Of a DNA stretch of 32,207 bases, positions 20,997 to 25,774 are shown in pieces. Source of the DNA: a bacterium (GTDB taxonomy: Bacteria > Sysuimicrobiota > Sysuimicrobiia > Sysuimicrobiales > Segetimicrobiaceae); NCBI GenBank assembly GCA_035295165.1, contig DATGJN010000010.1:1-32207 (forward strand), given 5' to 3'. The notes under the pieces were generated by a model. The model had not been told where the DNA came from. It made no database searches and was given only the letters and a program-made list of their open reading frames with translations. A program made the translations under genes and the position numbers. Positions within the stretch are counted from its first letter, which is position 1. Every line of letters starts with the position of its first letter.

Positions 20997-21008
20997 ACGA
21001 CGGAACAA

Positions 21009-21021
21009 TGACATTTCGGCA
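21009..21021. promoter_or_regulatory. Operator-like dyad C (half-degenerate), TGACA-TTT-CGGCA
   Basis: The left half-site is the perfect TGACA; the right half has two changes from TGTCA. Positioned 22 bases (centre to centre) from dyad D, about two helical turns, which would allow side-by-side binding on one face. Confidence 0.4.
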
Positions 21022-21029
21022 AGTTTGCA

Positions 21030-21058
21030 TTGACAAATTGTCACATTCTCGTTAACCT
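21030..21058 (+). promoter_or_regulatory. Promoter of the plus-strand HTH gene
   Basis: A consensus TTGACA (21030-21035) is followed after 17 bases by TAACCT (21053-21058). The predicted leader is about 40 bases and holds an AGAGGAG ribosome binding site before ATG 21105. Confidence 0.6.
21031..21043. promoter_or_regulatory. Operator-like dyad D, TGACA-AAT-TGTCA
   Basis: A perfect inverted repeat (6-bp arms, one-base centre, if the inner bases are counted). It overlaps the -35 hexamer of the plus-strand HTH gene promoter, a position at which a bound repressor would exclude RNA polymerase. Confidence 0.6.
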
Positions 21059-21104
21059 GGGCACGACCGCTTCGCCTCACGACGGCCAGAGGAGTCGGCG
21101 GAAC

Positions 21105-21563
21105 ATGCAGGTGCGTTTGAAGCGCGAGGTAGTCGAGATGGCTATTCTTCGCCGGAACCTGACAAAGACGGCGCTCGCCCGCCTGGCCGGGCTCCACCGG
21201 ACACACCTGTCCGATCTGCTCGCCGGCCGTACCGCTCCCGGTCCCCAGACCAGGCAACGGATCCTCGACGTGTTGGGCGGGGTGTTTGACGACTACTTCG
21301 AGGTCATGCGGGTGCGGGGCAGGGTTCCAGACGCGGAACGCGTCCAGCAGCTCCTCGGCGCAAGCCGCAGTCTGGTGGGGAACGAACCGGTTGGAACACA
21401 GGACCGTCTGCTCCGCATGCGCGACACCCTGCAGATTGGACTTCCACTCGCGCCCGAAGACCGAGTATGGCTCGACGTCGCGTGGAAGTCGAAACGCACC
21501 GGGACGCGTGGAGGTCGGGCGGCTCCGTCGGCCGGAACAACCGCCCCGAGGACACGCCGGTGA
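21105..21563 (+). CDS. Small HTH (Cro/C1-like) protein
   Basis: 152 residues from ATG 21105 with AGAGGAG upstream. Residues about 8-58 form a helix-turn-helix domain of the XRE superfamily (LTKTALARLAGLHRTHLSDL, then QTRQRILDVLG). The remaining part is helical and basic, and I recognise no domain. The frame upstream of 21105 overlaps the promoter and is not used. The gene is divergent from the larger XRE regulator, and the shared 169-base region carries the dyad motifs, so one or both products probably act there. No toxin, integrase or phage gene is recognisable next to it. Confidence 0.75.
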   Translation: MQVRLKREVVEMAILRRNLTKTALARLAGLHRTHLSDLLAGRTAPGPQTRQRILDVLGGVFDDYFEVMRVRGRVPDAERVQQLLGASRSLVGNEPVGTQDRLLRMRDTLQIGLPLAPEDRVWLDVAWKSKRTGTRGGRAAPSAGTTAPRTRR

Positions 21564-22143
21564 CAGCCTGCCTCGGCCGTGGGCACCTCGCGCGGCGCGA
21601 AAACGAGTTGCGAACTACCTCCCGCGTAGGACGGGATGCTCCTGAGCAATGGACGCTCTGGACGACACATTTGCAAGGTTGGACGCGAGACGTTCAGTCA
21701 TCCTCGCCCACTCGCATCGTATGGTTTCCGGCTAAGTACTGAGTCGAGGCGGCGCAGAAAGAGGCGCGCCACCACTATGACAAGATGACGTCGGAAGGTG
21801 CAGGCCTCCTCATCGGACAGGCCTGGATGTGATCCCTGCGGGCGCAGACGTTTATCATCACTCCATTCGTTGAGGTCGCGGCTAACAAACGGCGGCGCGA
21901 GATTCGCCAGGTGTTGGAGTCGGGCTTCACCGGGTTTGATCGCTGGTCCGTTCTTCGGATCGAGCAGCGGGGCCATCTCATCGAAAAGGGATTCGTACCA
22001 TGTACGGAGCTGGCCGTTCCCCGAGGCGCAATGCCCCTGCGGACGAGCAGTGCGTGCCTGATCGACGTGCCCGAGCGGGGGTTCTTAGGTTACTGTGGAT
22101 GACCCGGTGAATCGACGGACCTCTCCACACGCATCATTTGCTC
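21564..22143. other. Gap between HTH gene and glycosyltransferase, possible decayed gene
   Basis: 580 bases without a convincing gene. On the plus strand three protein-like stretches occur in succession, interrupted by stops: a 28-codon frame from ATG 21648 (MDALDDTFARLDARRS), a segment ending at a stop near 21830 (EAAQKEARHHYDKMTSEGAG), and one from about 21836 to 22102 containing TFIITPFVEVAANKRRREI. I do not recognise any of them. They may be fragments of one or more decayed genes, but chance open frames are also possible. Local GC is visibly lower than in the flanking housekeeping genes. Confidence 0.35.
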
Positions 22144-23103
22144 TCAGAGCGCGAAGTATCGCCGCACAACGTTCGGCGCACTCCGAGCGAGGACCTCGCC
22201 GAGAAAACACAGGAGGTAGAATGCCGTGGCCGCCGCGAACCCCGCCGGAACACTCACGCGGGGCGTACTTGCCTCGCCATGTCTGTAAACCGCGCTGCGC
22301 CATGCTCGCGCCTCGTCTCGCCAAAACCTCCTGACCATGGCGCGGAACGTCAACATCTCGTGGGTTCCCGCGATGCGGGGGAACTGATAGCGATCGTGCC
22401 CCTCGCAGATGCCGGTGCGGACAAAGTGACCGACCCCGCGGGGCGCCGGGTGTGCCGTCCGCGCAGACGGGTTCATATGGATCGCAATCCCATCCGCGAG
22501 TAAGCGCTGCGCGAGCCGGTAGCATTGGCCCCGGAATTGTTCGACGTCGTCCGGGAAGGGGTACCGCGTGAAGACGTCGCGACGGAACGCAACGTTGTTG
22601 GCGAAGAACCATGAGTTGGGATGCGGCGCTCCATCGCGTGACCGCACCGGAAACATCAGCCATCCGACCGCCATCGCATCACGGTAGAGGCCGCCGGTCT
22701 CGATGTATGTGTTGCCGGCGCAGACGAGGATCGCGGGATCATCGAATGCCCGCAGCAACTGGCGCAGCCAGCCGCTCTCGGGGACGACATCGCAATCCAC
22801 GAAGACGAGGATGTTCCCGTTGGCAAGGCGAGCCCCTTCGTTCTTCAACTGGTAGTACGCGAGGCCACGGGTTGGAATCACGCGCACGGCGGCCGACGTG
22901 CGGCCCAGGACGCGATCGGTGATCCCACGGACGTGCGAGCCGTCGATCGAGAGTTCATTGTAGAGTATCAGTATTTCACACGGTTCCGGTACCTCCTGAA
23001 CCTGATCGCGCAGCGCCTCGAGCATCTGTTGGCCGCGGGCGATTTCCGCAAACCGCACGTTGTCCCATTCCACGATCAGCGAAACGGCGCAGGTTCCAGT
23101 CAT
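22144..23103 (-). CDS. Family 2 glycosyltransferase
   Basis: 319 residues. GT-A fold transferase: an N-terminal nucleotide-sugar region, LKNEGARLANGNILVFVDCD with the metal-binding D-C-D at 103-105, and FANNVAFRRDVF in the acceptor part. A hydrophobic segment near 290-310 (FAAATAFYLLCFLGEVLA) would tether the C-terminus to the membrane. Such enzymes build cell-surface polysaccharide or glycolipid; donor and acceptor are unknown. It stands alone, without other polysaccharide genes, between a gene-poor gap and another gap. Start ATG 23103 is preceded by GGGGGGAC. Codon usage is less GC-biased than in the pentose-phosphate genes, which may indicate later acquisition. Confidence 0.85.
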   Translation of the reverse strand: MTGTCAVSLIVEWDNVRFAEIARGQQMLEALRDQVQEVPEPCEILILYNELSIDGSHVRGITDRVLGRTSAAVRVIPTRGLAYYQLKNEGARLANGNILVFVDCDVVPESGWLRQLLRAFDDPAILVCAGNTYIETGGLYRDAMAVGWLMFPVRSRDGAPHPNSWFFANNVAFRRDVFTRYPFPDDVEQFRGQCYRLAQRLLADGIAIHMNPSARTAHPAPRGVGHFVRTGICEGHDRYQFPRIAGTHEMLTFRAMVRRFWRDEARAWRSAVYRHGEASTPRVSVPAGFAAATAFYLLCFLGEVLARSAPNVVRRYFAL

Positions 23104-23544
23104 TTCGTCCCCCCGGCGAGCAGCTCGGGTAGGTGCAAACCTCGGCCAATTGATTCCGCGATCCCTCCTCCTCGTCCCTCCTCCGTTTGACCGATCCGAC
23201 GCTCGTCGACGGCGTGGTTGCCGTGCTGGCCGGCCCGCCGTTCTTCAGCCGCTCTTCGGTTGCTGGCGCATCTCTCGGGCGCGTTTTGCCGTGCCCTCGA
23301 AAGAGGCGGGCGCGCCGAGGTGTTGAACCGTCCCGAACGGCCCCGAACCTCTACGAAGGCCAGGCACGAACTCGGCCCGGTAGCCTATATGAACCCAGAC
23401 GTTCCGCGAAAGCCCCCGATCCGAAACGATTATCCAATCTTTACTTGCCCTTAGCGCATCTCCGTACCGCTCATTCGGATCCCCTCGGATAATGAAGACG
23501 CCGGGCCGCGGAATGCGACGAGGCCCAGGCGGAAGGGGGTCGCC
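23104..23544. other. Intergenic region upstream of glycosyltransferase and MBL gene
   Basis: 441 bases between two divergent genes. Short frames exist on both strands, but none has a ribosome binding site or recognisable domain. GATAAT (23488-23493) could be a -10 for the downstream metallo-hydrolase, but no matching -35 is present. I see no repeats or RNA gene. Confidence 0.5.
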
Positions 23545-24348
23545 ATGGACTTCGAGGTGATCGGTCCGGCTGCCGCCAGTCCAGGGAAATACGGGCCGTG
23601 CTCGAGCTACTTGGTCCGCAGCGACCGTGCCGCGGTGTTGCTCGACTGCGGTCCCGGCGCGGTGGCCGAGTTCGTCCGACGTCACGGTCTCAGCGAAATT
23701 ACCGGGGTCGTGTTGTCGCACATGCACGCCGATCATGCACTGGACGTCTACACATTGTCGAAGGCGATTCTCGCACGTCAGCGTCTCGACGGCAGGGCTC
23801 CGATTCGACCGAGGCTGTTCCTGCCCCCGGGGGGAGCGGAGGTCCTGCTCGATGTCGCCGCCGCGTTCTCGCCCATTACGCCGGGTGTGTGGGGAGCGCC
23901 GTTCGCCGAGGCGTATGACCTGATCGAGTACGATCCCGCACGAGCGGTCCACATCGAGGATATGACGTTGACGTTCGTTGGTCCCACGAACCATCCGGCG
24001 CCATGTTGGGCGATCCGGGCCGCGGCCGGCGGCGAGACGCTGGCGTTCAGCGCCGATTCCGCGTGGGACGAGGTCCTCGTTCGGGTTGCGCGGGACGCGG
24101 ACGTGTTTCTTTGCGAGGCGACATACGGCATCGGTGACCCGCGCCATATCCACCTGACCGCCGGGGAGGCCGCGCGCGCGGCGCAGGCAGCCGGTGCCCG
24201 CCGGCTCGTGCTCACGCACCACCGGTTGCCCGACGACGAGGAGATGGATCGCCTCCGAAGGTACGTGGCGGCGATTGTCCCGTGCCCGGTCGACGTCGCC
24301 GTTTCCGGTCTCGGCGGTCCCGTTGGGGCCGCGGTGGGAGTCCGGTGA
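23545..24348 (+). CDS. Metallo-beta-lactamase-fold hydrolase (RNase Z-like group)
   Basis: 267 residues. The metal-binding motif SHMHADHALD (H59, H61, D63, H64) is complete. Further ligands are the His in TNHPAP, the Asp in FSADSAWDE and the His in LVLTHHRLPDD. The arrangement (NPxx-like, FSAD, CEATY, HLTAGEAA) resembles RNase Z/phosphonate PhnP-like phosphodiesterases and other MBL-fold hydrolases, but lacks the exosite of true RNase Z. A cyclic phosphodiesterase or lactonase role is possible. ATG 23545 follows AAGGGGG. Just after its stop begins a broken ABC-transporter remnant. Confidence 0.85.
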   Translation: MDFEVIGPAAASPGKYGPCSSYLVRSDRAAVLLDCGPGAVAEFVRRHGLSEITGVVLSHMHADHALDVYTLSKAILARQRLDGRAPIRPRLFLPPGGAEVLLDVAAAFSPITPGVWGAPFAEAYDLIEYDPARAVHIEDMTLTFVGPTNHPAPCWAIRAAAGGETLAFSADSAWDEVLVRVARDADVFLCEATYGIGDPRHIHLTAGEAARAAQAAGARRLVLTHHRLPDDEEMDRLRRYVAAIVPCPVDVAVSGLGGPVGAAVGVR

Positions 24349-24397
24349 GGCGGGCCGCGGAGGCGTTCTCGGCGGCCCGCTCCAGCTGGTCCGACAC

Positions 24398-24833
24398 GCG
24401 ATCGGGTTCCTGTACATCAACGCGGACCTGTTTCGCCGGGCCGGGCTGGATCCGAAACGCCGGCCTGCAACCTGGGCCGAACTGCGCGCCGACGGGCAGC
24501 AGCTCACGCAGAAGACCGTCAAGGTCGGAGCGTTCATCATTCGGTCGTCTTCGTTCGGCGCCGCGGAGCTGATCGCGTCCGGCGGCGGCCGCACGGTCGG
24601 TCTCGACGGCCGCCCCGCGTTCGCCCGGCGTCGCGGCGCCTGGCCCCTACTGACGGCACCGGCGACCTCGATGCACACCGTGCAGACAGGCATCGCGCAG
24701 TTCCTTGGCGAAGGCGCAGAGTTGTGGGGACCGCTGACCGCCGCGAGTACGGTCGTGTGCGCGCTGGTGGTGGTCGCCTTTGATCTGGCAGCGGCAGATC
24801 ATCGAAACGTTCGTGGCATCGGCGGGACGGTAG
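24398..24833 (+). pseudogene. Relic of a sugar ABC transporter: binding-protein fragment joined to permease C-terminus
   Basis: A single frame shows two unrelated homologies joined end to end. From about 24398 the translation reads IGFLYINADLFRRAGLDP, then ATWAEL and QQLTQKT, then ELIASGGGRTVGLDGRPAF. This is the central part of an extracellular solute-binding protein (UgpB/MalE group). After about 24637 it changes to WPLLTAPATSMHTVQTGIAQF and ELWGPLTAAS, the last third of a MalG/UgpE-type permease. Near 24778 the frame shifts by one: in the next frame the expected ending LIWQRQIIETFVASAGR is read and stops with TAG at 24831. The signal sequence, most of the binding protein and most of the permease are missing. 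I read this as a deletion between two genes of a former transporter operon, followed by a frameshift. It has no start or ribosome binding site of its own. Confidence 0.78.
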
Positions 24834-24912
24834 CGTCCGGACGGGCCCGGGCGGACGAACGCGGGACGGCGGCCGACCGCCGGCCGGCCCCGCCATAGGG
24901 GAGGCAGCGCGG

Positions 24913-25746
24913 ATGCGCGTGCTCATTACGAACGACGACGGCATCGAAAGCGAGGGGCTGCACGCGCTGGTGCGCGCGTTCGCGCCCGTCCACGAGGTCG
25001 TCGTGCTCGCGCCGAGCGACGACCGCAGCGCCTCGAGCTCGGCGCTGACGGTGCGCAGCGACATCGATGTGCACGCAGCCCCGGCGCTCCTCCGCATGGG
25101 CGCCGCGCTCGCGTATCATCTGAACGGTACGCCGGCGACCTGCGTCGTCCTGGCCGCCTGCGGCACCGTGGTGCCGCGCCCGGATCTCGTGGTGTCTGGG
25201 GTGAACCCCGGACCGAACCTCGGGTGCGACGTCTTTCTCTCCGGGACGGTCGGCGCGGCCCGCGTGGCGACCACGCTCGGGATTCCCGGCGTGGCGGCGT
25301 CGTGCCGCCGCGACCCGGCCGGGCCCGCATGGGAGACCGCGGCCCGCATGGCCCTGCGCACGGTGGAGCTGCTGGGCGACGGACACCTCGACACGGGCGG
25401 CATCGGCGGTCGGCCGCCGCTGGTGAACATCAACGTGCCGTCGCTCGCCCCTCGGTCCGTCGTGGCAACGACGGTGGCCGGATACCACGTCGTCGAGCAC
25501 ACGGTCATCGAGCAGGCTGCGCCATCCGGGAACGTCGGGCGGCGGTTGCGCCTCGAGCTGCGGGCCGCCGTGCCCCAGTCTCTGGAACCGGGCACAGACG
25601 CGTGGGCGTTTTTCGCCGGGGATACCTCGGTGACCGTGCTGGACCATCCCGCCGACCGGCCGGCGCCGAACGATCCGTCCGACCTTGCATGCTACTTGGC
25701 GCGCCACCTCGTCGAGGAAGTCTCCGGGGCGCACAACTCCCGCTAG
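24913..25746 (+). CDS. surE: 5'/3'-Nucleotidase SurE
   Basis: 277 residues. SurE hydrolyses nucleoside 5'- and 3'-monophosphates and short polyphosphates and is linked to stationary-phase survival. N-terminal RVLITNDDGIESEGLHALV has the metal-binding pair D8-D9. APSDDRSASSSALT supplies the conserved Ser. SGVNPGPNLGCDVFLSGTVG has the Asn and Ser-Gly-Thr motif of the active site. A strong GGGGAGG precedes ATG 24913. The C-terminal domain is normal in length. It follows the transporter relic by 79 bases and converges on the LD-carboxypeptidase gene, with 28 bases between the stops. Confidence 0.95.
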   Translation: MRVLITNDDGIESEGLHALVRAFAPVHEVVVLAPSDDRSASSSALTVRSDIDVHAAPALLRMGAALAYHLNGTPATCVVLAACGTVVPRPDLVVSGVNPGPNLGCDVFLSGTVGAARVATTLGIPGVAASCRRDPAGPAWETAARMALRTVELLGDGHLDTGGIGGRPPLVNINVPSLAPRSVVATTVAGYHVVEHTVIEQAAPSGNVGRRLRLELRAAVPQSLEPGTDAWAFFAGDTSVTVLDHPADRPAPNDPSDLACYLARHLVEEVSGAHNSR

Positions 25747-25774
25747 GCGGCCCGCTCGAACCGCGACCTCGGGT

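Follow-up and report, generated by a model that had tools for sequence, protein, structure and literature searches.

A MalG-type permease has a full set of membrane helices together with the EAA loop. With these permeases (MalG/UgpE type) the locus described here shares a C-terminal segment, running onward from the conserved WPL, together with a tail in the next frame; it differs from them in lacking the first three quarters and in carrying a frameshift. With the UgpB-type, family-1 solute-binding proteins (SBPs; PF01547, PRK10974) it shares a middle segment, without the N- and C-terminal parts. The locus also invites comparison with disabled genes in general. Many prokaryotic pseudogenes have been linked to failed horizontal transfer (PMC522871). 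The present case resembles such pseudogenes in being a disabled, truncated and frameshifted family copy in DNA that is absent from relatives. It differs from them in that two neighbouring genes appear to be joined in one frame across a deletion.

The locus is an ordinary pseudogene: it is homologous to intact families and carries disabling lesions, namely loss of the SBP start, a large deletion at the junction and a frameshift. We consider it, with a probability of about 0.85, to be the non-functional remnant of one SBP-MalF-MalG ABC importer operon, contained in a block of ∼4.2 kb gained by this genus. As such it is a clear small example of the decay of an ABC importer operon.

Layout and coding state of the frame

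Within the window, the whole stretch of 32,207 nucleotides that was analysed, the remnant lies between a metallo-beta-lactamase (MBL)-fold gene and a surE gene:

23545..24348, plus strand: upstream neighbour, MBL-fold gene; nearest NCBIfam families are a cyclic-nucleotide phosphodiesterase and RNase Z, both below cut-off
24392..24616, plus strand: remnant, middle of a family-1 (UgpB/MalE-like) SBP gene, from profile and relative alignments; the first ∼130-150 and last ∼200 residues are gone
24617..24640, plus strand: SBP/permease junction zone, same frame on both sides, from the end of the SBP match to the start of the MalG match
24641..24778, plus strand: C-terminal quarter of a MalG/UgpE-type permease, first frame, from MalG matches in its own genome, relatives and profiles
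24780..24833, plus strand: extreme C-terminus of the permease, next frame, ending at TAG 24831-24833; low score of its own, in register
24913..25746, plus strand: downstream neighbour, a second copy of surE, with 68% identity to that of the same-genus genome G001

The junction zone was placed by alignment to relatives rather than to an ancestral sequence. The MBL gene looks whole, with a C-terminus 5-7 residues longer than in most of 22 homologues, and the SBP match begins about 44 bases past its stop. The genome's other surE copy (C92) is 41% identical to the one in the window.

The fused frame occupies 24302..24895 within a span open from 24194 to 24895 (TAG at 24896). A start-codon scan found no ATG, GTG or TTG in this frame from the MBL stop (24348) to 24671, nor anywhere in 24323-24671; the start codons that precede 24671 lie inside the MBL gene, which is read in a different frame. 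At 0.86 and 0.83, GC3 in the frame remains coding-like, which suggests that the decay has not been under way for long. The window contains no tRNA.

Identity of the two parts

Public profiles recognise the binding-protein part at modest scores. It matches PF01547 (SBP_bac_1) with 25.7 bits (E 1.4e-5, 50 of 307 profile positions), just under the Pfam gathering cut-off of 26 bits, and NCBIfam UgpB (PRK10974) with 30.8 bits (E 1.1e-7, profile positions 148-189 of 439), far below the curated cut-off of 411. Solved chains of sugar-binding proteins and UgpB are matched as well (7bvt, E 1.4e-5; UgpB 6x84, E 0.0012, and 4aq4, E 0.0021). Over 37 residues, identity to SBP genes of relatives is as high as 62%. 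Among 43 genomes of the phylum that were searched, 23, its own included, contain a match at E 1e-6 or better. The closest match outside its own genome, G032:C6, is 40% identical over 72 residues without gaps; the equal length on both sides of this alignment indicates that the segment has suffered no net internal deletion. Matches stop about half way along other SBPs and begin only at residue ∼127-150 of them, which means that the protein has lost its beginning. The N-terminus with its secretion signal and the complete pair of lobes that define an SBP are thus not present.

The substrate of the broken importer cannot be told from ∼75 SBP residues, which do not allow a choice between the sugar and the glycerol phosphate named in the first-pass annotation. 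The setting of G032:C6, with putative dihydropyrimidinase-like and isochorismatase-like neighbours, was discarded as a guide, since 40% identity over 72 residues carries no substrate.

The permease part falls below the cut-offs of the public profiles tried (Pfam and NCBIfam). No Pfam permease family matches it; its sole Pfam match, DUF6611 (E 0.015, below cut-off), was taken as chance, and NCBIfam MalG reaches only E 0.085. Its identity comes from individual genes and purpose-built profiles. In its own genome, three of its best hits (C86, E 5.9e-5; C16, E 0.0017; C26, E 0.03) and a weaker one (C120, E 0.12) fall at the ends of MalG genes. It also matches MalG ends in relatives (best E 9.7e-5), and at E 0.1 or better it is matched in 11 of the 12 genomes of the family, its own among them. 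A profile of 25 distinct MalG sequences (26 rows), some of them fetched with the remnant itself, gives it 28.6 bits, and 27.0 bits in the window scan over columns 196-244 of 260. Because this profile contained loci fetched in that way, a second was built from six operons that SBP or neighbour searches had turned up, one of which (C120) also had a weak permease-side match. The second profile scores the permease part at 25.3 bits, and at 23.6 bits in a six-frame scan of the window, where the part ranks first (E 7.7e-7) and the frameshifted tail second (E 0.21).

The tail scores low by itself (4.9-8.2 bits, the upper value with the second profile). It is assigned to the permease because the frame beginning at 24780 resumes at position 244 of the first profile, where the first frame, covering positions 196-238 or 244, leaves off; it then continues to position 257. 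What survives of the permease is therefore only positions 196-257 of 260, split over two frames.

Shuffled sequences do not reproduce these matches. The real sequence scores 55.3 bits with the SBP profile and 27.0 bits with the first MalG profile in the window scan, against a best of 5.9 and 2.4 bits, respectively, among 1000 dinucleotide shuffles of 24349-24912. With the second MalG profile, 720 of 1000 codon shuffles scored at all, the best at 4.9 bits. One of 6000 17-residue peptides from the window reached the 5.1 bits of the tail with the first profile, and this peptide may be the tail itself, as the draw covered the whole window, the remnant included. The passage of one frame from an SBP into a MalG-type permease, read from the sequence in the first-pass annotation, is thereby borne out, as is the frameshift ahead of a true C-terminus that is readable to a stop. 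The permease segment is indeed the C-terminal end, and amounts to the last quarter.

Operon order and lesions

A deletion that joins these two parts requires the gene order SBP-MalF-MalG. This order is found in five of the six complete operons read in the phylum (C120, C86, G032:C6, G002:C27 and G001:C69, the sixth, C16, being MalF-MalG-SBP) and in six of nine overall when those outside the phylum are added (G237, SBP-MalF-MalG; G176 and G171, MalF-MalG-SBP). The MalF-MalG-SBP order of the remaining three does not fit such a deletion. No relative with an intact operon between the MBL and surE genes, as the first-pass annotation had thought possible for close relatives, was found in the searches made, so the deletion is deduced from operons elsewhere. 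By arithmetic on coordinates, the DNA between the two joined points measures about 2.3 kb in C120 and about 2.9 kb in G032:C6. A scripted value of 2.07 kb for C120 rests on a MAFFT placement that scatters the last SBP residues, and that placement was not used for the junction.

These comparisons suggest a course of decay. The operon would have lost the start of its SBP gene, before or after arrival; a deletion of roughly 2.3-2.9 kb would have removed the SBP end, malF in full and malG up to its last quarter; and a frameshift would have arisen near the end of the permease. No striking repeats that could have caused the deletion were seen. The pseudogene has at least three lesions (junction deletion, loss of the SBP start and frameshift). 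A deletion joining two neighbouring genes was rightly proposed at the outset, but it does not explain the locus in one step, because the SBP has in addition lost its first ∼130-150 residues and a frameshift is present.

The derivation of both parts from a single operon is probable. It fits the fact that G032:C6 has the best SBP match and also a permease nearly as close to the remnant as any (identity 0.38 vs 0.39 for the best). Against it, the top permease matches (G001, G002, G003 and G007, all 0.39) lie outside the operon of the best SBP match.

The remnant should do nothing as a transporter: there is no signal peptide, the SBP N-terminus being absent, only ∼75 binding-protein residues are left, the first permease is missing and the frame has no start between the MBL stop and 24671. 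The appropriate annotation is a pseudogene rather than a fused transport protein. Nor can it be concluded that this kind of import has been lost, since the genome has at least three further sets with near-full-length SBP, MalF and MalG matches (C120, C86 and C16), the three components that the search covered.

The MBL gene was considered as a partner of the lost transporter and rejected. An SBP-MBL gene pair exists in relatives (G002:C44, G005:C71), and an SBP end with an MBL gene in the genome itself (C67); the paired MBL proteins are only about 28-31% identical to that of the window, which is nearer to other homologues (35-41%). The missing operon was in neither of the two surroundings of such homologues that were read: at L202 genes that are not transporter genes adjoin the homologue, with ABC-like frames (putative names) more than 6 kb off, and at L203 its neighbour on the opposite strand is a putative peptide-type SBP-like frame. 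An MBL-SBP-MalF-MalG-SurE operon elsewhere was likewise set aside, the operons at L200 and L224-L226 having no MBL or SurE matches.

An SBP gene with an MBL-fold gene after it on the same strand forms a conserved pair at L198 (5132-7237), L199 (8145-10348) and L204 (29-1187, starting within the SBP gene); the sequence read there gave no match to MalF or MalG. At L201 (G001:C45, 6410-6688), an SBP C-terminal remnant (profile positions 350-406, 15.5 bits) precedes an MBL gene; the SBP is whole in G002.

The probable insertion site and its history

The gene order of the family around the site is hisC, HTH, HTH2, peptidase S66, MntR-like and Nramp-like (hisC, MntR-like and Nramp-like being putative names). 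In this genome it is interrupted:

21564..25774, no strand assigned: block flanked by HTH2 and the peptidase S66 gene, holding a glycosyltransferase, the MBL gene, the remnant and surE; absent from 9 of 9 other-genus family members; ends approximate

The site is empty in the other genera. About 60-100 bases separate the HTH2 match from S66 in four members (G005, G004, G009 and G007), and about 70-240 bases separate hisC from it in five (G008, G010, G006, G003 and G011), distances that leave no room for a transporter, an MBL gene or surE. Within the genus, the slot of G001 holds surE and about 2.4 kb of other content without an MBL gene; at E 1 it shows no remnant of an SBP or MalG gene. S66 was not found in G001 at E 1e-40, and its contig ends about 0.8 kb past surE. 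At the thresholds applied, neither HTH2 nor S66 was matched in the third genome of the genus (G002). As the remnant sits in a block absent from all nine other-genus members, it more likely arrived with inserted DNA, the ∼4.2-kb block having presumably entered, in this genus, between HTH2 and the S66 gene. It may have come together stepwise, since the G001 slot carries surE but no remnant. GC content dips to 0.62-0.65 at 21001 to 23500 relative to the surroundings; this is weak evidence for foreign origin, because the dip starts in the family-shared HTH2 and the remnant and surE lie outside it.

These observations bear on whether an importer had been present at the site in the ancestor of the family, with all other lineages losing it and this genome keeping the last trace. 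A remnant is present, and SBP decay does occur in the genus, as the C-terminal end kept in G001:C45 illustrates. Such a history is nevertheless unlikely: parallel clean losses would be needed, the flanking genes being adjacent in all nine other-genus relatives, and the same-genus G001 has different slot content. The remnant alone does not imply ancestral loss. It is simpler and more likely that the genus gained the DNA and that the operon then decayed, the site comparison indicating that the gain probably came first. The assertion of the first-pass annotation that the lineage had lost an importer here runs against both the empty sites and the lack of a remnant in G001.

A misjoin of two operon pieces during assembly would produce a similar junction, and the assembly is in 121 contigs; no second genome with the junction, and no close strain with the same remnant, came to light in a search of 146 other genomes that scored few candidates in each. 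We regard this as very unlikely, given that the hisC-HTH-HTH2 and S66-MntR-Nramp flanks keep the family order on both sides, that surE in the slot is common to G001, and that the frame's next-best match in its own genome is 54% over 37 residues. Even less credible is a functional small protein fused from parts of a transporter, for example a cytoplasmic ligand-binding fragment. Like a small gene that has been retained, the frame has no stop in either part and a coding-like GC3, which also counts against the remnant reading. However, the N-terminus is absent, the permease end is frameshifted, every start before 24671 belongs to MBL sequence in another frame, and a 564-base query was matched whole in 0 of the 146 genomes and by short matches in only 14 (again with few candidates scored per genome). 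That the fused frame is translated from a start inside the MBL gene, as a small protein recruited from transporter pieces, is the least probable proposal of all.

The reading as a decayed importer operon in a gained block is therefore preferred. A plasmid search with the frame returned 348 records, all below 60% identity and none covering 80% of the frame; the 15 matches listed among them are SBP genes. In G007, HTH2 and HTH are about 3.1 kb apart (L248; G007:C10, 5685-8830), so the hisC-HTH-S66 region may be one into which DNA has inserted repeatedly.
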